From Sulfurospirillum multivorans DSM 12446 (GTDB lineage: Bacteria > Campylobacterota > Campylobacteria > Campylobacterales > Sulfurospirillaceae), in NCBI RefSeq assembly GCF_000568815.1, contig NZ_CP007201.1, positions 2,985,654 to 3,049,653 of the forward strand: a stretch of DNA of 64,000 nt. Direction: 5' to 3'. Positions 22,058 through 30,886 of this stretch are shown piece after piece. How positions within the stretch are numbered: position 1 is the stretch's first letter; each line of letters begins with the position of its first letter. The position numbers were made by a program, and so were the translations under genes. The notes below the pieces were generated by a model. That model searched no databases. It saw nothing but the letters and a program-made list of their open reading frames with translations, and was not told the DNA's origin.

Positions 22058-23071
22058 CTAATAGGTACGTAAAGCTTCAACAGGATCAAGTCTTGAAGCT
22101 TTGATGGCGGGAGATATGGACGCGACTAACGAGATAAAAATAACGATGATACTCACACTAAGTATCTCATTTAACCCTAAGCTCGGTGTTAAAATAAGAC
22201 CGCTTTGTTGCCCAATACTATAGGTAATCTTGACCATATTGAGAAGATAAACAATCCCCAAAGACAAAATACTTCCCACAACCGCCCCAAACACGCCTAG
22301 CATCAAGCCTTCACATAAAAAAAGTTTGACGATGGTCAAAGGCGGTGTGCCCATAGCCGCAATGGTTCCTATTTCTCGGACACGCTCAAACACACTCATG
22401 ATCATCACATTGAGGATGGAGATAAGGACAATAGAGATAAGGATGATTTGAATCGAAATATTCATAACATCAATCATCTTAATGATGTTGTAAAAAGGAG
22501 AGAGTTGCTGCCATGTATGAATTTCCAAAACAGGCTTTCCCTCTTTATTGAGTTTTTCCAAGAGTGGCTGAAGTGATTTTTCTGCAACTCTCAGTTTTTC
22601 TACGTCTCTTAGGCGAAGGACGATTTCACTGATCTCAAGTTCATTGTTCATTCGCAGTGCCTTTTTGGCATCTTCGATGTGAATGTACCCATCACGTCCT
22701 CCAGGTCCCATGACTTGCCCCACGATACCTGCAACTTTAAGGTTAATGCCATTGACGGAGCCATTTTTGTTATTGGCAACCAAGACGATGGTATCGCCTA
22801 TTTTGACATCCATCCCTTTGATAAGCAGTTCAGGAACAATGATTTCGCCTGATTTAAAAGTACCATTCATATCAGAAATTCGACTTTCAAGGAGTGGCAA
22901 CGTTGGAAATTCATCTTTAGGATTAATCGCGTTAAGTCTGATGTTGGTCGTACTGGTAAAGTTAGAAAACATTGCACCAAACTTGATGCGATAGCTGTAA
23001 CTCTCTATAAAAGGATTGGACTCTAGCTTCGATTCGACAAATTCTAACATTTTGGCATTGAGGTTTTTATC
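22058..23071 (-). pseudogene. FtsX/MacB-type ABC permease, 3' part, separated by the transposon
   Basis: The C-terminal 334 or so codons of a permease whose first 78 codons lie at 30652-30886. This part has a periplasmic MacB-like core domain and three C-terminal helices including the FtsX pattern (ERVREIGTIAAMGTPP) and ending ASRLDPVEALRTY. Joining ...LPLDKN with LNAKMLEF... across the target repeat restores a continuous 412-residue protein, normal for the family. A GTG at 23092, inside the transposon terminal repeat, could start translation of the remnant, but it lacks the first helix. Confidence 0.9.
23062..23071. repeat. Target-site direct repeat, left copy
   Basis: GGTTTTTATC immediately outside the left terminal repeat; the same ten bases follow the right terminal repeat at 30652-30661. 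Only one copy is needed to rebuild the permease gene. Confidence 0.85.
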
Positions 23072-23100
23072 GATATTATGTAGCAAGCGCACAAAGATTT
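23072..23100 (+). repeat. Left terminal inverted repeat of the transposon
   Basis: Begins GATATTATGTAGCAAG, then CGCACAAAGATTT. It matches the inverted right end at 30623-30651 except for one C/T difference and one extra A. Inside the permease fragment it supplies an out-facing GTG at 23092. Confidence 0.88.
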
Positions 23101-23157
23101 CCTAGCTATTTTTGATAAAATTTTCTTAAATAAACTCCATATTTAAGGGATTTCATT

Positions 23158-23598
23158 ATGGCAGAATCACATGTTATTTCGGCACTCGTATTAAAGAGAA
23201 GTGAATTTTTAGGTGAGATACAACATTATGAAGCACTTATAAAAGAGTATAAAGAGAATCTTGTCAGCATAGACAAAACCATCCATATTTTTGATGCTTC
23301 ATATGACCTTAGAACTATAAAATCAAAAAGAGTTATGAAAGAGAGATATTTTCAAATTGGAGAAGCGGTTGTTTTAATTCTTGATACACTTAGAACAAGC
23401 AATAAACCAATGAAAACAGATGAAATATGTGCTGCGATTGCTTCAAAAAAAGGTTTATCTTTAGAAAGCGATTATGAAAAAGCTACCTTTCAAAAAACTA
23501 TAGTTGCCTCTTTAAGCAGAACAGTGAATAATAATCTTGTTGAGAGAGCTGGGAGGGACGGGTTAACTATGATTTGGCAGATAAAAGCGGTTATTTAA
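23158..23598 (+). CDS. Transposon accessory protein, unknown function
   Basis: 146 residues, ATG preceded by AAGGGA. The N-terminal half is charged and helical, probably a coiled coil (about residues 15-50). The C-terminal half (about 70-146) looks like a small winged helix (MKTDEICAAIASKKG..., then a final strand pair). It lies between the left end and the transposase and its stop overlaps the convergent transposase stop by 4 bases. Similar small proteins starting with M-x-E-S-H-V are, from memory, frequent in proteobacterial genomes; a role in transposition or as a repressor is possible but not shown. Confidence 0.65.
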   Translation: MAESHVISALVLKRSEFLGEIQHYEALIKEYKENLVSIDKTIHIFDASYDLRTIKSKRVMKERYFQIGEAVVLILDTLRTSNKPMKTDEICAAIASKKGLSLESDYEKATFQKTIVASLSRTVNNNLVERAGRDGLTMIWQIKAVI

Positions 23599-24611
23599 GC
23601 TCCCAGTCTCTCACTCACCCTCTTATTACCCTGCCAGTATCCACAGAACTCATTGCTTACGGGTGTTGCTAAGCATTTTGAGAAGATGTCATTGAAAATA
23701 GCACCATTACTCATTCTTCGTGTATCTTCACGATAAGCGATTTCATTGGCATAGTTACTCAAATAGAGGTTTGAAATTTTATGACATTGTCCATACTGCA
23801 TACGGCGAAATCTTGCATTGTATGATTCAGATTGATTATTACAAGCACCATCCATACTTTTATATTCAATACTGTGATTTACTCTTTTCATATCATAATG
23901 AGCGTGAAAATGGTCATAGCCAGTATGCTCATCTGCATGGATTATTGCTCCAAGCTCAATGCTATTATAGATTATCTCTTTGATGTCAGAAGTGTTCTCA
24001 CCCTTTGTGATAAAAGTCTTTGTTCTTACGGAACCAACGCATTTAGAATTAATTTCAGCTCTTTGTCTAATTGAGATGACCGTTCTTTTATTGGGCTTAT
24101 AGGCTTGTCTTCTATCAATTCTATCTTCAATATTATTCGCTGGTCTGATATAGTTTCCTACATAGACACCATCCACTTCACACACTCCGCTTAGTTTTTC
24201 ATTATTTTGATTTAGCAGAAGTGATTCTCTAATCTTATGTGATAAAACCCAAGCCGTTTTATACTGAACATCAAGGTCACGACTAAACTGCAAAGCTGAG
24301 ATTGATTTTACTGCATTGGTGAAGAGCGCTATGGCTATCAAATAGACTTTTAGTGGAAGCTTGTGACTTGCAAACAGAGTTCCACTTGTAACTGAAAAAG
24401 TATGATTGCACTCTTTACATCTAAAGTGTCTGCGTGTTGTTAAGAAGTAATGTTCACCACAATTTCCACATGATGGACAAACAGGCTTACCCTTATTATC
24501 ACTCCATCTTACTGCTTTAAAATTCTCAAAGGCTTCATCGTCACTCATAGTAAAAAGTTTCATTAGTGATAAATCTCTGGCTTGTGCTGTAAGTAAAAAA
24601 TGTTGTGACAT
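23595..24611 (-). CDS. IS1595-family (ISXO2-like) transposase
   Basis: 338 residues from the ATG at 24611, preceded by AGGAGG; a longer start at 24668 lacks a site. Domain order is typical: a zinc ribbon (about 45-75; CPSCGN ... CKEC), a helical segment (LPLKVYLIAIALFTNAVKSI), then the ISXO2-like catalytic domain. Candidate acidic residues are Asp in EVDGVYVG, Asp in HADEHTGY and Glu in NQSESYNARF, giving a DDE set. It looks intact and probably moves the whole element. It is read toward the left end. Confidence 0.9.
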   Translation of the reverse strand: MSQHFLLTAQARDLSLMKLFTMSDDEAFENFKAVRWSDNKGKPVCPSCGNCGEHYFLTTRRHFRCKECNHTFSVTSGTLFASHKLPLKVYLIAIALFTNAVKSISALQFSRDLDVQYKTAWVLSHKIRESLLLNQNNEKLSGVCEVDGVYVGNYIRPANNIEDRIDRRQAYKPNKRTVISIRQRAEINSKCVGSVRTKTFITKGENTSDIKEIIYNSIELGAIIHADEHTGYDHFHAHYDMKRVNHSIEYKSMDGACNNQSESYNARFRRMQYGQCHKISNLYLSNYANEIAYREDTRRMSNGAIFNDIFSKCLATPVSNEFCGYWQGNKRVSERLGA

Positions 24612-24763
24612 AAAAGGCCTCCTTAAAAATACATGATAATTATATCGAATTTGATTATATTTTGTCAATTAGTTTAACTATTTAAAGTATATTTTGTTAA
24701 TTTTATTGGTTATAAATATAATTTTAGATATAATCACTTGTAAATATGAAGTTGAGGCGAAAG

Positions 24764-24985
24764 ATGTTAGAGTTTGATAAAAATATACCAAAGAATTTAA
24801 TCAAGGCAGAACTACATCGCCAAGGTCTACAAGTAAAAGATTTAGTGAGACTCTTAGAACCCTATAACGTAAAAATGACTGATTTATCATTCAATAACAA
24901 AATGAGTCGAAAAGGATTTAGTGCAGATTTTTTTCTTAAGTGCATGGATGCATTGGGTGTAAAAACACTGAAAATTCGTGACTAA
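24764..24985 (+). CDS. DUF6471-like small helix-turn-helix protein
   Basis: 73 residues. The ATG at 24764 is preferred because GAGG lies seven bases before it; an earlier ATG at 24746 has none. The sequence (NLIKAELHRQGLQVKDLVRLLEP ... FSADFFLKCMDALGV) has the layout of a small HTH domain with helices 1-4 and resembles DUF6471 proteins. Placed 92 bases before the methyltransferase in the same direction, it could be a controller protein timing restriction after transfer; this is inference. Confidence 0.65.
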   Translation: MLEFDKNIPKNLIKAELHRQGLQVKDLVRLLEPYNVKMTDLSFNNKMSRKGFSADFFLKCMDALGVKTLKIRD

Positions 24986-25077
24986 AGAGAAACGATTTGG
25001 CTTTACTATTACAGAATGAAATATTTTTGACTGTTTTAAAAAAAAATAAATAGACTTACAAAAAAAGAAGGCAAAAA

Positions 25078-26985
25078 ATGAGTAAAAGTATTATAAATGA
25101 CATGTGCATTTCAGATACATTTGAAGCTAGACCAATATTGAAATGGGCAGGGGGTAAAACTCAACTCTTAGCAGAATTACTTAAACGAATGCCATTAGAA
25201 TATAATAACTATATAGAACCTTTCTTTGGTGGTGGTGCGTTATTTTTTAAAGTTCACCCTAAAAAAGCTATTTTATCTGATATTAATCCTGAATTGGTTC
25301 ATTTATATAATACAATTGCTACAAATCCACATGAAGTCATTAACAATTTAAAGAATAACTTTTACAATGAAGAAGAATTTTTTTATCAAATGCGTGCTAT
25401 AGATACTGAGCCACTGACAGATACTATGAAAGCTGCAAGAACAATTTATCTTAACAAAACATGTTTTAATGGCTTATATAGAGTGAATAAAAAAGGTCAA
25501 TTTAATACGCCATATGGAAAATATAAAAATCCAAATTTTTGTGATGAAGTCACAATACTCGCAGCCTCTAAAGCCCTTCAAGGAACCATTTTTGAGCATA
25601 TGAATTATAAGGATACTTTGACTAAATATGCAAAAGCTGGCGATTTCATTTTTTTAGACCCGCCTTATTTACCAATTAGTGAATATTCTGATTTTAAACG
25701 TTATACCAAGGAAGGTTTTTATGAAGAAGACCAACAAGAATTAGCAACACTAGTAAAACAGTTATCAGAGGAAGGATGTCATGTACTTTTGACAAATTCT
25801 AATGCGCCTCTTGTATATGATTTATACAGTGACTTTGATATAAGCGTTATTCAAACAAAGCGCCATATAAATAGTAAAAGTAATAGCAGAACAGGACAAG
25901 ATGTTATTGTATCTGCTCCACCAAAGCGCAGAAAACTTGTAAACTTGGGAAGTTTTGATCTTCCCCTCCAAAATAAAAAATATCCAACTACAAGATATAT
26001 GGGTAGCAAACAATCTTTATTAAATCAAATTGCTGCAGCAACCAGCTCTTTTCAATTTGAGACTTTTTTAGATTTGTTTGGGGGTAGTGGTGTTGTGAGT
26101 TATATGTTTAAAACATTAGGGAAACAGGTAATATCTAACGATTATATGGCAATGAATTTTAAGCTTTCTGATGCGTTGATTTCCAATAAAGAAATTAAAT
26201 TGTCTGAATCTGATATAGAACTTCTCCTCCATGGTAATTTAGATGACAATGGATTTATTTCAACAACTTTCAAAGGTATTTATTATACCGATGAAGAAAA
26301 TGCTTTTATCGATTTAGTTAGAAATAATATTCAAAAATTAAAAGACAAAACAAAACAAAATATTGCGATGAGTGCGCTCATCCGAGCATGTACTAAAAAG
26401 CGTCCTCGTGGTATTTTTACATACACGGGATTCCGTTACAATGATGGCCGAAAAGATTTACTTCTTAGTTTTGAGGAACAATTTAGAGCCGCTGTTAAAG
26501 TAATCAATAATGCAGTATTTGATAATGGCAAGGCAAATAAATCTCTCAATAAAGATGCAATGGATGTTAATGTCAAGGCTGATTTAGTCTACATAGACCC
26601 ACCATATTTCAACCCAACTTCGGACAATGAATATGTAAGACGTTATCATTTTATTGAAGGTTTAGCAAAAAATTGGCTTGGTGTTGAAATGCAGTGGGAG
26701 ACAAAAACTAAAAAATTTAAAAATTATCCAACACCATTTAGTACCAGAATCGGTGCTTATGATGCTTTTGACAAGTTATTTAAAAAACATTCTAATAGTA
26801 TTTTGGTTGTATCATATTCATCAAACTCATTCCCAACGAAAGATGAGATGGTTGGGTTATTAGCAAAATATAAAAAAGATGTTGAAGTCTTAGCCATAGA
26901 TTACAAATATTCATTTGGTAATCAAGGGCATAAAATTAACGATAATAAAAATAATGTACAAGAGTATATCTTTATAGGATATTAG
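25078..26985 (+). CDS. Fused double DNA adenine-N6 methyltransferase (D12 class)
   Basis: 635 residues made of two complete Dam-like (MethyltransfD12) domains. Domain 1 (about 15-285): WAGGKTQLL, EPFFGGGALFF for S-adenosylmethionine binding, catalytic DPPY at 194-197. Domain 2 (about 300-635): RYMGSKQSLL, DLFGGSGVVS, catalytic DPPY at 507-510. Fused pairs such as M.FokI modify the two strands of an asymmetric site, one adenine per domain. It protects against the endonuclease encoded one base downstream. The site cannot be read from sequence. AAGAAGG lies before the start. Confidence 0.93.
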   Translation: MSKSIINDMCISDTFEARPILKWAGGKTQLLAELLKRMPLEYNNYIEPFFGGGALFFKVHPKKAILSDINPELVHLYNTIATNPHEVINNLKNNFYNEEEFFYQMRAIDTEPLTDTMKAARTIYLNKTCFNGLYRVNKKGQFNTPYGKYKNPNFCDEVTILAASKALQGTIFEHMNYKDTLTKYAKAGDFIFLDPPYLPISEYSDFKRYTKEGFYEEDQQELATLVKQLSEEGCHVLLTNSNAPLVYDLYSDFDISVIQTKRHINSKSNSRTGQDVIVSAPPKRRKLVNLGSFDLPLQNKKYPTTRYMGSKQSLLNQIAAATSSFQFETFLDLFGGSGVVSYMFKTLGKQVISNDYMAMNFKLSDALISNKEIKLSESDIELLLHGNLDDNGFISTTFKGIYYTDEENAFIDLVRNNIQKLKDKTKQNIAMSALIRACTKKRPRGIFTYTGFRYNDGRKDLLLSFEEQFRAAVKVINNAVFDNGKANKSLNKDAMDVNVKADLVYIDPPYFNPTSDNEYVRRYHFIEGLAKNWLGVEMQWETKTKKFKNYPTPFSTRIGAYDAFDKLFKKHSNSILVVSYSSNSFPTKDEMVGLLAKYKKDVEVLAIDYKYSFGNQGHKINDNKNNVQEYIFIGY

Positions 26986-26986
26986 T

Positions 26987-28714
26987 ATGACACTATGGTT
27001 TTTTGGGAATACTACAGTCAGATCGCCTTTTCGATTACGAGACGGTTTGATTGCTATTTATAAAGCACAGTTACAAGGTCATCTTCGCGGCAAAAATGAA
27101 GAAATGAGGTTTAATGAAATTCTTGCTGAATTTGGAATTGTTGATACCAAAAGTGATGTTACTTATAGTATTGGTAGGAAGTGGAGAGCCGCATTAACAC
27201 AACATGGATTTTTGTATCCAAAGCTAAACAAAAAAGATCAAGATAATTTTTTATCAGAACTTGGAGCTACAGATACTATAACACCAAATGGTTTTAGATT
27301 AATGCGAGCAGAAACAGTATCTGGGTGGCAAGAGTGTTTTTTGCGTTCCATGGCAGCATATATTGTTCCTTCTGATATTGAACCTAAAAAAGAAATTTCT
27401 AAATATTTTTCACCTCTTCGATTGGTTTTAGAGATTATGCTAGAGTTAGAAAAAAAAGTTGGTGATAGCAAAGTAAATTTTATTGAGATAGCATCAATAA
27501 TTCAATGTCGAGTACCAACTGATGGTATTCAAAACATTGTTGGTGAAATAATTTCGCTTAGAACAGCCAGAAACGATTCAATTAGAAAAAAACATTTTGA
27601 TCGTTTAATTTATGATAATTTAGCGGAGAAATACAACAAAAAACCAGACACATTTAGTGCCTATGCTGATGCAAATCTAAGATATTTAAAAGCAACAGGG
27701 CTTTTTTATAGTAAAGGACGAGGGATAGCCTTATCTGATGAAAAACATGTACTCATTATCAAACTTGTTGCAGATAATTTTAAATATACTTATGATTTAG
27801 CTTATTTAAAAAATCTTACCAACGGTGCAAAACTCCCATTAGACAATCATGATGATGCTATGGATGTTCTAAATGATCTTATTGGAAAATTACGCCAACG
27901 GGGTGAATTTATCGATGTATCACAAGAAAAACTCGATACTCCTTCTGATATAGCCATCATTAGACATACCATTGAAGATAAATTATTTAAATTTCATGAA
28001 ATTGATTATGCTAAATCACAAGCATCACAGATAGATGAAATATTAATATACCTTGATCTTTTCTCTAAAAATAAAGTAAAACATGAACGAGAGGATGGCA
28101 GTAGTATCGAAATTCCTAGCTCTGAAAAACCAGCATATTTGGAATGGATAATATGGCGCTCATTTTTAGCTATCAACTCTCTTACAAATATGCCTTGGGA
28201 GGCAAGAGGGTTTAAAGTAGACCAAGATTTTTTACCTATTGGGACAGCTTCTGGCGGTGCTCCTGATATGGTTTTTGAATTTGAAGATATGGTAATTGTG
28301 GTTGAAGTAACGCTAACTACATCTTCAAGACAAGAAGCAGCAGAAGGTGAACCTGTTAGAAGACATGTTGCAAAATATGCTGAATCATTTGATGGGACAG
28401 ACAAAAAAGTATTTGGATTATTCATTGCGATTAATATAGACACTAACACTGCTAATACATTTCGTCTCGGTGAGTGGTATTTAAAAGATGACAAAAAAAT
28501 AGGCTTACTTATTGTTCCAGTTGAACTAAATGATTTCAAACTTCTTTTAACTGCTTATCGATCAAATATTGCCCAAGTAAAAGATATTTTAAGACCATTG
28601 ATGATGGAATGCAGGGTAGAAATAAATAATGATGCACCTAAATGGAAGAAAGCAATTTCAACTATTATTAATAATCAAATAAAATTTTATAATCATGCAA
28701 ACCCTAGAATATAA
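26987..28714 (+). CDS. AlwI-like type IIS restriction endonuclease
   Basis: 575 residues. The N-terminus (MTLWFFGNTTVRSPFRLRDG) is characteristic of the AlwI/MlyI/PleI/BstNBI family. The first two-thirds should be the DNA-recognition part. The C-terminal third holds a PD-(D/E)xK-like nuclease core: Pro426-Asp427 (GGAPDMVFEF), then Glu440 in VEVTLTTSSR, with Thr442 where many nucleases have Lys, a family trait as I recall it. Such enzymes cut a few bases outside an asymmetric 5-bp site and some nick one strand. The ATG follows the methyltransferase stop by one base, so the genes are co-translated. Confidence 0.88.
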   Translation: MTLWFFGNTTVRSPFRLRDGLIAIYKAQLQGHLRGKNEEMRFNEILAEFGIVDTKSDVTYSIGRKWRAALTQHGFLYPKLNKKDQDNFLSELGATDTITPNGFRLMRAETVSGWQECFLRSMAAYIVPSDIEPKKEISKYFSPLRLVLEIMLELEKKVGDSKVNFIEIASIIQCRVPTDGIQNIVGEIISLRTARNDSIRKKHFDRLIYDNLAEKYNKKPDTFSAYADANLRYLKATGLFYSKGRGIALSDEKHVLIIKLVADNFKYTYDLAYLKNLTNGAKLPLDNHDDAMDVLNDLIGKLRQRGEFIDVSQEKLDTPSDIAIIRHTIEDKLFKFHEIDYAKSQASQIDEILIYLDLFSKNKVKHEREDGSSIEIPSSEKPAYLEWIIWRSFLAINSLTNMPWEARGFKVDQDFLPIGTASGGAPDMVFEFEDMVIVVEVTLTTSSRQEAAEGEPVRRHVAKYAESFDGTDKKVFGLFIAINIDTNTANTFRLGEWYLKDDKKIGLLIVPVELNDFKLLLTAYRSNIAQVKDILRPLMMECRVEINNDAPKWKKAISTIINNQIKFYNHANPRI

Positions 28715-28904
28715 TAAAGAAACAGGTCAAATCACTAGTTGCGAGTACAATGAAGGCTTTTTAGTAAGTTCAAACGATATTACTACTGCTGTAATGACTT
28801 TAGCGCTTGAGAAGCTTTATGATGATTATGGCTTGGATATTGGTGATGAAGTTGTCATTACGAAGAAAAATGGTTTGGATAAAGTTACTAAATTTGAGGT
28901 GTAA
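28695..28904 (+). CDS. Small protein of unknown function
   Basis: 69 residues, acidic, no membrane segment. It starts 20 bases inside the end of the endonuclease gene and its stop is followed by the metallophosphoesterase start 2 bases later, so it belongs to the same transcript. The C-terminal half (GLDIGDEVVITKKNGLDK) has a beta-turn-rich look like small swapped-hairpin antitoxin proteins, but this is too short to identify. Not recognised. Confidence 0.6.
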   Translation: MQTLEYNKETGQITSCEYNEGFLVSSNDITTAVMTLALEKLYDDYGLDIGDEVVITKKNGLDKVTKFEV

Positions 28905-28906
28905 AA

Positions 28907-29752
28907 GTGGCTCGTATTGATATATTAAGCGACTTACATTTGGACGCCTATTTTCCTCACACTCCAAAAGTTAAAAAAGAAGCTGTTAAAGATATTTTTG
29001 ACCCTATATTTCTGGTAAATAGAACAAGCGTAGGTGATGTTCTTATTATTGCGGGAGATATAGGGCACTACAATGAACAAAACATTGAGATATTGCGGAT
29101 ATTCAGGCAAGAGTATTATCAAAATATCGTATGCGTATTAGGAAATCACGACTACTATTTAAATTCAAAAGATGAGCAAGAGAAGTACCAAAAATCCTCA
29201 TTTGCTCGTGTAGAAGAGATGAGAGCGTTAATCAATGCAGAAGAAGGTATGTATTGCCTCAATGGTGCCGTAGTTGAAATTGATGGTATTAGATTTGGTG
29301 GTGTTGATAGTTCTTACAATAACGCTTATCTAAAAGTATATTTCCCCATTTCTGATAATCCAAGATCGAATAATGAGTATTGGAAAATGAATATGCCAGA
29401 TCATAAAATGATGTTTGGCATTAAGAAATACAATCAACTGTACAAGTTATCACTGCCGTTGCTAGAAGCAGTGTATAAAGATTGTGATGTGATGATAACT
29501 CACGTCAATCCCTCTTTTTTACATCAGCATTTGTCTCCTAGTTGGCAAAATAATCGTAGCAGTATGTTTTACTCTTTTGATGGTCATAGGTTCTTAGAGG
29601 GCGGCAGTATGAAATATTGGCTATTCGGGCATACCCACAATAGGCTAGAATACGAACATTATGGTGTTACGTGTATCTGTAATCCTTTGGGCTATCCACC
29701 AGAAGAGGACTACAATAAGATGGCCGTGACCTTGAGGAGTATTGAGTTATGA
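28907..29752 (+). CDS. Calcineurin-like metallophosphoesterase
   Basis: 281 residues. The GTG start has GAGG seven bases upstream. All blocks of the metallophosphoesterase fold are present in order: DLHLD (Asp9, His11), GDIG, GNHDYY, the HVNP histidine, and GHTHNR near the C-terminus. These bind two divalent metals and hydrolyse phosphomonoesters or diesters, in some relatives nucleic acids or cyclic nucleotides. No extra domain is attached. It is the catalytic member of a four-gene set downstream of the restriction-modification genes. A defence function is suspected from position only. Confidence 0.82.
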   Translation: MARIDILSDLHLDAYFPHTPKVKKEAVKDIFDPIFLVNRTSVGDVLIIAGDIGHYNEQNIEILRIFRQEYYQNIVCVLGNHDYYLNSKDEQEKYQKSSFARVEEMRALINAEEGMYCLNGAVVEIDGIRFGGVDSSYNNAYLKVYFPISDNPRSNNEYWKMNMPDHKMMFGIKKYNQLYKLSLPLLEAVYKDCDVMITHVNPSFLHQHLSPSWQNNRSSMFYSFDGHRFLEGGSMKYWLFGHTHNRLEYEHYGVTCICNPLGYPPEEDYNKMAVTLRSIEL

Positions 29753-30165
29753 AGTATATCACTGCTGTTTCAGCTTTAAATATCCCTTTTGGACTCATTC
29801 AATGCGATTGGCATCAAACTGAAATGCTGAAAAATAATTTTTATCAAATTCACCCGTCTAATTTCATGGGCGCAGTCGATATTTTTGGAAACTATGGAAT
29901 TTATGACAATACTGATTTTTTTACCAAAAAGGGTTTTGAAGTCTCTGGTGTTTTGGTTGCTTCTCCGATTCGTGCACTTTTGGATATCTTGTTTAATTCC
30001 ATTGTTGAGAGAGGTGTTTATCCGAAACATTTTATGATGAGAGATTATCTGTTTGATGAGATTGATCGTGTAGAGTTAAGTGAAAAATTGAATACTTTTG
30101 GTGAAGCCTTGAGTAGCGGGAAGCTAGATATGCTCTTGAGATGGAGAGCAGAAAATGAAATATAG
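29749..30165 (+). CDS. Unknown protein coupled to the metallophosphoesterase
   Basis: 138 residues with a 4-base ATGA overlap with the phosphoesterase, so translation is coupled. It is mixed alpha/beta and has no signal or membrane segment. Segments ITAVSALNIPFGL and VASPIRALLDILFNSIVERG faintly recall AbiEi-type antitoxins, in which a P-x-R-A-L-L-D block is common, but no winged helix is clear. Treat as unassigned. Confidence 0.6.
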   Translation: MKYITAVSALNIPFGLIQCDWHQTEMLKNNFYQIHPSNFMGAVDIFGNYGIYDNTDFFTKKGFEVSGVLVASPIRALLDILFNSIVERGVYPKHFMMRDYLFDEIDRVELSEKLNTFGEALSSGKLDMLLRWRAENEI

Positions 30166-30421
30166 TGAAGATTTCAAATTAACAACGGCTATAGATTTAC
30201 ATAATATCATTATTGTTTGTGAGCGTCTTGATGAATTAGACGAGAAGACGCTCTTAGATTTTCAAAGGTTAAGTCGTGATACGGAGTTGCTTTTTAGTTT
30301 TAAAGATGGCTATGACTCAGATCCATTGCTTGCTGGACGATTTTACGAGGATATGTCAATGCTTGAGAAGATTTTTTCTTGCACTGGGGTTGATCTTGAA
30401 AAAGAGTTTCCTAAATCTTAA
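30155..30421 (+). CDS. Unknown small acidic protein
   Basis: 88 residues; the start lies 10 bases inside the end of the preceding gene. It is strongly helical and acidic and has no recognisable motif. It closes the passenger operon. Its tight overlap implies that it acts with the 138-residue protein and the phosphoesterase. Confidence 0.55.
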   Translation: MKYSEDFKLTTAIDLHNIIIVCERLDELDEKTLLDFQRLSRDTELLFSFKDGYDSDPLLAGRFYEDMSMLEKIFSCTGVDLEKEFPKS

Positions 30422-30622
30422 TATTTTATAAATGGCGTAAGTTTTTTGGAGAGATTGGTGTGTTTTAAGAACGGGTACTTAATCTAACAATGAAAGAAGT
30501 ACGCTAGTTCACGCTTAAGCGTGTATGCTTAGATAGTGTCTCCACTACTAAGGGAACGCATACTTATTTCAACAATAAAAGTATATCATATTTAGTGAAA
30601 ATTTGGCAAAACATCAGGTTAC
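30422..30622. other. Right subterminal region of the transposon with inverted repeats
   Basis: Two hundred non-coding bases. A perfect 14-base palindrome CACGCTTAAGCGTG lies at 30510-30523, and related pieces AGTACGCT and ACGCATACT flank it, so a longer imperfect fold is possible. It could be a terminator for the passenger operon, a transposase sub-terminal site or a small RNA. No run of T follows the stem. Confidence 0.45.
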
Positions 30623-30651
30623 AAAATCTTGTGCACTTGCTACATAATATC
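30623..30651 (-). repeat. Right terminal inverted repeat of the transposon
   Basis: Reads AAAATCTTGTGCACTTGC on the plus strand and ends CATAATATC; its reverse complement matches the left end from the outermost base for 23 bases with one difference. Confidence 0.88.
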
Positions 30652-30661
30652 GGTTTTTATC
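30652..30661. repeat. Target-site direct repeat, right copy
   Basis: GGTTTTTATC, identical to 23062-23071. It encodes Asp-Lys-Asn of the interrupted permease on the minus strand. Confidence 0.85.
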
Positions 30662-30886
30662 GAGAGGGAGGTTATCGACAGAAGCCACATACCCTTTTTT
30701 GTGTATCTGAATATGCCCCATTAAAGAATCGGTAATCTGCCCAACCGTGTAACTTTTAAAGCTCCCTGACATCGCCGTGTAGATAAGCACAAAAATGACC
30801 CCTATTGTAATCAATGAAGCCGTTAAAAGCGTTCTTCGATAGTTTCGTTTGAGATTGCGATAGGATATTTTAAGGATATTGTTCAT
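30652..30886 (-). pseudogene. FtsX/MacB-type ABC permease, 5' part, separated by the transposon
   Basis: Encodes the first 78 residues: the cytoplasmic start with N-L-K-R-N-Y-R-R, the first membrane helix (about 20-40) and the beginning of the periplasmic domain up to LPLDKN. The reading frame then runs into the transposon and stops at 30614 after 12 foreign codons. The start overlaps the stop of the ATPase gene by 4 bases. The remainder is at 22058-23071. Confidence 0.9.

Follow-up and report, generated by a model that had tools for sequence, protein, structure and literature searches.

The R-M (restriction-modification) system that lies inside a split permease gene of Sulfurospirillum multivorans DSM 12446 raises the question of what brought it there, and whether the same vehicle carries such systems elsewhere. 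We analysed a window of 64,000 nucleotides from contig NZ_CP007201.1, and all coordinates given without a locus or contig name are positions in this window. An initial annotation had read the segment as a complete transposon of the IS1595 type that moves a type IIS R-M system together with a further module, and this reading was borne out by empty insertion sites, by another such element elsewhere in the genome and by the other cargo of related elements. We consider it highly probable that the segment is an entire IS1595-family transposon with cargo, 7,582 bp in length (23071-30652), which inserted into the Sulfurospirillum permease gene and duplicated 8 bp of it. The insertion is defined by the following features:

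22058-23070, minus strand: 3' part of the interrupted FtsX-type permease gene (PF02687, E = 9.5e-13, and empty-site alignments)
23063-23070: left copy of the 8-bp target duplication GTTTTTAT, identical to 30653-30660 and present as a single copy in the empty sites of congeners
23071-23094, plus strand: left terminal inverted repeat (TIR), CGATATTATGTAGCAAGCGCACAA, with 23 of 24 nucleotides complementary to 30629-30652
23595-24611, minus strand: IS1595-family transposase, 338 amino acids, with a zinc ribbon and a DDE domain (PF12762, PF12760, NF033547)
30629-30652, minus strand: right TIR, 24 nt, pairing with 23071-23094
30653-30660: right copy of the target duplication GTTTTTAT, identical to 23063-23070
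30661-30886, minus strand: remaining 5' part of the same permease gene (412 amino acids when both parts are joined)

The TIRs had been described as near perfect, and over their 24 nt we found a single mismatch. The ends had been placed at 23072 and 30651, next to a 10-bp target repeat, GGTTTTTATC. The event is the same, but the true ends are 23071 and 30652. The 10-bp duplication was rejected, as it includes at either side a base that also fits the element end and is hence ambiguous, and the aligned ends of related elements give 8 bp, GTTTTTAT. The left-TIR motif is also present in 57 related elements with exact duplications (see below). All 114 ends of related elements start with CG, and together with the 8-bp duplications of the relatives this sets the borders at 23071-30652. 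Matches to the TIR pattern were found in 20 of 397 Campylobacterota genomes, and a reversed control pattern matched none of the 397. The GC content of the element was 33.0%, as compared to 40.1% and 42.6% in the flanks.

Joining the flanks without the element restored a single FtsX-type permease of 412 residues, as initially proposed. With the left flank as query the permease gene was found in 12 of 24 genomes of the genus. Empty sites with one target copy in an intact permease gene had been named as a check on the insertion, and they were seen in ten congeneric genomes (L112-L121), in which 200 bases of the joined site aligned across the junction. Nine of these alignments were gapless, and the tenth (L120) had one compensated 1-base gap away from the junction. 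The uninterrupted alignment in ten congeners makes the empty site real, beyond a reconstruction, and also answers the concern that the permease halves might normally be separate genes. The gene is normally whole, and since it is intact in these ten genomes the insertion is recent or confined to the S. multivorans lineage. No close transposase was found in 14 other Sulfurospirillum genomes.

The assignment of the transposase to the IS1595 type was confirmed by a full-length match to the catalytic domain DDE_Tnp_IS1595 (PF12762, E = 8.2e-39), by the N-terminal zinc ribbon (PF12760, E = 5.6e-14) and by an NCBIfam score of 131.6 bits against a cut-off of 75 (NF033547). The 8-bp target duplication is likewise a feature of this family (PMC8101967). 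A sequence search of the PDB gave no convincing relative of the transposase.

The R-M system is encoded by two genes:

25078-26985, plus strand: fused double D12 (N6-adenine) DNA methyltransferase, 635 amino acids (PF02086 in two stretches, E = 1.2e-82)
26987-28714, plus strand: AlwI-type type IIS restriction endonuclease, 575 amino acids (PF09491, E = 4.1e-115)

This agrees with the fused double methyltransferase and AlwI-like endonuclease claimed before; the reading frames of both genes, and that of the transposase, are open throughout. The methyltransferase has a DPPY motif in both D12 domains (residues 194 and 507), matched PADLOC MTase_II with an E-value of 2.6e-283 and has the DpnII methylase 2dpm as nearest PDB entry (E = 7e-66). 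Its two D12 domains would serve the two strands of an asymmetric site, as is expected for the AlwI type. The RE_AlwI profile (positions 4-440 of 441) covers residues 74-519 of the endonuclease, whose candidate PD..EVT catalytic motif is intact at residue 426. It matched PADLOC REase_II (E = 1e-173), with N.BspD6I as the closest PDB entry (E = 1e-19). By analogy with AlwI we would guess GGATC as the recognition site.

To find related elements, 84,980 species genomes were scanned with the transposases of the window element and of a second S. multivorans element (described below), which gave 80 loci, selected by transposase similarity and not by cargo. Ends were sought as inverted repeats with adjoining 8-bp duplications, assuming no end sequence, and additionally by a motif search. 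Both ends were found for 65 elements, including two from Sulfurospirillum, and 57 of the 65 had an exact 8-bp duplication. A minimal element, with only the transposase and one accessory gene for a winged-helix protein, measured 1,665 bp (L039, L040). Transposases of the element family were also found on 12 alphaproteobacterial plasmids and on contigs of a viral collection.

Pfam scans of the cargo of 30 elements from outside the alphaproteobacteria, some of them cut by contig ends, showed a DNA methyltransferase in 26. Their R-M cargo included type III (methylase and ResIII), HsdM with a specificity protein, type IIG, C5 methylase with HaeII, AlwI-type and D12 with HNH systems. A GmrSD/HNH set and a JetD-like gene were found as other cargo. 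In contrast, at most 6 of 63 cargo proteins of the 38 alphaproteobacterial-type elements matched DNA methylase families, and R-M systems were in the minority there. The difference places the bias towards R-M cargo in the clade of the window element.

Three further genes of the window element were examined in the light of these relatives:

23158-23598, plus strand: accessory winged-helix protein, 146 amino acids, backbone gene (homologues in 63 of the 65 two-ended elements)
24746-24985, plus strand: DUF6471 protein, 79 amino acids, divergent from the transposase, candidate backbone regulator (PF20075, E = 5e-19)
28695-28904, plus strand: small open reading frame (ORF), 69 amino acids, backbone gene that borders the cargo slot on the right in Campylobacterota elements

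The 146-residue ORF had been overlooked by the initial annotation and is a nearly universal partner of the transposase. Its AlphaFold model (mean predicted local distance difference test score, pLDDT, 90) has a 44-residue N-terminal helix followed by a winged helix, and Foldseek matched it to winged helices of the NolR/Fur/PadR type with modest E-values (best 2.7e-3). It had no match among phage records. It is likely a dimeric DNA-binding partner or regulator of transposition. The DUF6471 protein had been taken for an R-M controller (C) protein, which we rejected: its gene stands at the same place in 29 of the 65 elements, many of them without R-M genes. An XRE gene was found in 3 of the 65. 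Profile comparison showed no kinship of DUF6471 with the XRE proteins of the same position, and neither a convincing solved relative nor anything specific in the open literature was found for it. The 69-residue ORF is 55-93% identical in L005, L014, L017, L018 and L123, where it stands beside unrelated cargo. Its earlier assignment to a phosphoesterase gene set was rejected, as it tracks the backbone and has no copy at either of two homologous phosphoesterase loci. The best model of this ORF had a pLDDT of 79 and the other four about 50, so that its fold is not dependable. Because they are present around other cargo, the winged-helix gene, the DUF6471 gene and, in Campylobacterota, the 69-residue ORF are genes of the transposon and not of its cargo.

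A second element with the same ends was found in the S. multivorans genome (C1:1726654-1732166, 5,513 bp, duplication GAATTGTC), so that the search for the same ends around other cargo, suggested earlier as a check, succeeded both in the relatives and within this genome. Its transposase, winged-helix protein and small ORF are 69%, 48% and 60% identical to those of the window element. As cargo it has a single D12 methyltransferase, an endonuclease unlike that of the window element (DUF6996/DUF6997/DUF7226; PADLOC REase_II, E = 4e-46) and an XRE protein. As the backbone DNA of the two elements is only about 67% identical, the two arrived separately. The gene split by the second element (L005:2015-3178) has a weak phage-integrase SAM-like match, and another phage-integrase gene lies nearby; the element may for this reason be nested in an older mobile region.

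Comparison of close relatives showed similar element ends around dissimilar interiors. Between elements from Lampropedia (L034) and Pseudomonas oleovorans (L036), identity is 97.1% in the first 1,525 nt, which reach up to the transposase start codon, and 80.5% in the last 450 nt, whereas the interior holds an AlwI-type R-M system in the former and a type IIG enzyme in the latter. Similarly, L017 and L018 have unrelated interiors but share about 96% identity in their first 1.55 kb and 95% in their final 285 nt, which begin with the small ORF; L018 comes from a metagenome bin labelled Gracilibacteria and was not used as evidence of inter-phylum transfer. L054 and L126, with 90.9% identity over 1,545 nt, have methylases of different families. 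For the window element and L014, whose R-M systems are unrelated, identity was 80-81% in the left core and 87% in the small ORF. A transposase tree, made with a quick method and having some long branches, showed the same mixing of cargo. These alignments indicate a slot for cargo, bordered by the transposase start codon on one side and by the small ORF on the other, in which unrelated R-M types appear to be exchanged. Movement together with the cargo is suggested by a Campylobacterota genome (G207) with three 100% identical copies of a 4,602-bp element at three sites, each including its D12 methylase and HNH protein, for which transposition of the whole unit is the simplest reading.

Between the small ORF and the right end the window element carries additional genes:

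28907-29752, plus strand: calcineurin-like metallophosphoesterase, 281 amino acids, second passenger module (PF00149, E = 5.6e-14)
29749-30165, plus strand: AbiEi-like protein, 138 amino acids (PADLOC AbiEi, E = 1.7e-18)
30155-30421, plus strand: protein of 88 amino acids resembling only the C-terminal part of AbiEii (PADLOC AbiEii, E = 1.1e-5)

A four-gene phosphoesterase set had been proposed here. Its phosphoesterase stands, but the 69-residue ORF belongs with the backbone and the last two genes are AbiEi-like and like the C-terminal part of AbiEii. The 88-residue protein covers positions 130-194 of the 203 in the AbiEii profile and is not a complete AbiEii nucleotidyltransferase toxin. In L014 the right end follows shortly after the small ORF, and neither the phosphoesterase nor the AbiE-like genes are present. 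A remnant right end of a related element lies on plasmid pSDCE1 of S. diekertiae ACSDCE (L138:10001-11558), with a phosphoesterase of 34% identity, the first 35 residues of the AbiEi-like protein at 77% identity and a TIR at base 29121. This remnant shows that elements of this kind reach plasmids in Sulfurospirillum. A TIR was found at the same position (base 29121, second contig) in genome G056 of the same genus.

Taken as a whole, the element looks like a vehicle that spreads R-M systems between bacteria. We infer the movement of the window copy, the activity of its R-M system and the mechanism of swapping as follows. The DDE transposase would bind the CG(G/A)NATTATGTAGCA ends and move everything between them, with the winged-helix protein probably acting as its partner or regulator, while the divergent DUF6471 protein probably tunes the promoter of the transposase, of the cargo or of both. 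The R-M cassette would equip its carrier with restriction, and cells that lose the element would pay a penalty when methylation fades and the endonuclease lingers (addiction), so that the R-M system would also help the transposon to persist. Cassettes would probably be exchanged by recombination between co-resident elements that share both ends. We give slightly less than even weight to a stronger claim, namely that this IS1595-type lineage is a dedicated R-M shuttle, with a constant chassis and one exchange slot, that swaps type I-like, II, IIG and III systems and crosses genera and classes. Its chassis would comprise the two ends, the transposase, the winged-helix partner, the regulator and the small cap ORF, with slot borders found repeatedly close to the transposase start codon and to the small ORF, and swapping might possibly occur by a dedicated recombination process that uses the edge of the small ORF.

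Certain observations weigh against the window element as a mobile carrier of R-M genes. It is present as a single copy, and its own movement was not seen. GGATC/GATCC occurred 51 times in the flanks against about 67 expected, which is no clear avoidance. In G207, copies 1 and 3 (L123, L125) are without a matching duplication and only one copy has an exact one; an inversion between copies 1 and 3 was considered as the cause, but flanks compared by eye did not fit. Finally, an AlwI-type R-M system of the same build, with 61% identity in the methylase and 43% in the endonuclease, was found in G509 (L142) with no TIR nearby. Cargo without the TIRs in close relatives had been named as grounds for abandoning the transposon; we saw this in a weak form only, in the distant G509, and in no close relative. 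The G509 locus means that such cargo also occurs on its own, which does not make the element any less real; the AlwI-type R-M system is therefore cargo recruited by the element.

We regard it as unlikely that the element jumped in the past and is now dead, fixed and with decaying parts such as an AbiEii-like fragment. The single copy in the genome, the truncated look of the right-hand AbiE-like genes and the TIR mismatch fit such a course, but every reading frame and catalytic motif of the backbone and of the R-M system is intact, and relatives have been active recently, as in the three identical G207 copies. There is very little room for the idea that the ends are served by a transposase in trans while the internal transposase acts on other ends: the second element of the genome, whose ends are almost the same, makes cross-mobilisation plausible, but in the 65 elements, found via their transposase, these ends border the transposase together with a target duplication. 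R-M systems behave as mobile, addictive units and an AlwI-type system stands without these ends in G509, but a selfish R-M unit as the driver, which picked up an IS1595 element on one side and has fortuitous or later ends, is the least credible explanation, given ends at both outer borders, an exact target duplication, empty sites, relatives that keep both ends and backbone while the R-M system differs, and a minimal element without R-M genes.

Additional observations were made on the cargo-carrying IS1595-type family as a whole. The target duplications of the 57 related elements lean to a GAAWTTTC-like palindrome, and for this reason the family may prefer certain targets. The JetD-like gene of a Gallionella element (L028:3039-9676) stands beside a protein of 1,669 amino acids without a Pfam or PADLOC match, possibly as a Wadjet-like system. 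In alphaproteobacterial elements (L058/L060 and L047/L048/L059) unrelated cargo alternates in a second slot, between the transposase and the winged-helix gene, within flanking blocks that are 79-91% identical. Most second-slot proteins are without a Pfam match and may represent unknown defence genes. Pairs of different family members stand next to each other at L052:5061-12871, L070:1838-8275 and L086:5069-13230, with the same 8-bp target between them and on both outer sides (AAGATATC, GAGTTTTC and GATTATCC/GGATTATC), as if the second had inserted into the duplication of the first.

The movement of R-M systems between bacteria has so far been deduced mostly from patchy distribution. For the element described here the vehicle is known to single-base precision. 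Empty sites and sister elements accompany it, as do recent transposition to several copies and the exchange of cassettes on a near-identical backbone across bacterial classes, and the spread of R-M systems by simple transposition and their system-for-system exchange become directly testable. The ends and the winged-helix gene can serve as a search key for new R-M and other defence cargo.

Among known systems, R-M genes flanked by inverted repeats with a short target duplication were reportedly described by Furuta, Abe and Kobayashi in 2010. The window element likewise has R-M genes between inverted repeats and a short duplication; unlike it, mobility genes, a backbone, empty sites, an element family and cassette swapping are documented here. 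The cargo resembles AlwI-type type IIS systems (PF09491) in the whole-profile match of the endonuclease and the adjoining double D12 methyltransferase. The 138- and 88-residue proteins match parts of the AbiEi and AbiEii models, and differ from AbiE in the partial AbiEii match and in the metallophosphoesterase that precedes them. A classical insertion sequence (IS) holds a single transposase gene only; the eight further ORFs of note found here make the element a 'transporter IS' (tIS), with passengers unrelated to transposition, the R-M and phosphoesterase/AbiE-like genes, inside its ends. IS1595 elements with passenger genes are known as such a class (Siguier, Gagnevin and Chandler 2009, as cited in PMC3129680 and PMC12888890). 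No description of R-M passengers in IS1595 elements, or of an exchange slot, was found in the open literature, with Siguier, Gagnevin and Chandler 2009 lying outside its reach. The window element shares with IS1595 and tIS elements the zinc-ribbon and DDE_Tnp_IS1595 transposase, the TIRs, the 8-bp duplications and passengers between the ends. It differs from those described in the open literature in carrying a complete R-M system and in having a constant second gene for the winged-helix protein, a DUF6471 or XRE gene in divergent orientation and a cargo slot with set borders in which R-M systems alternate.

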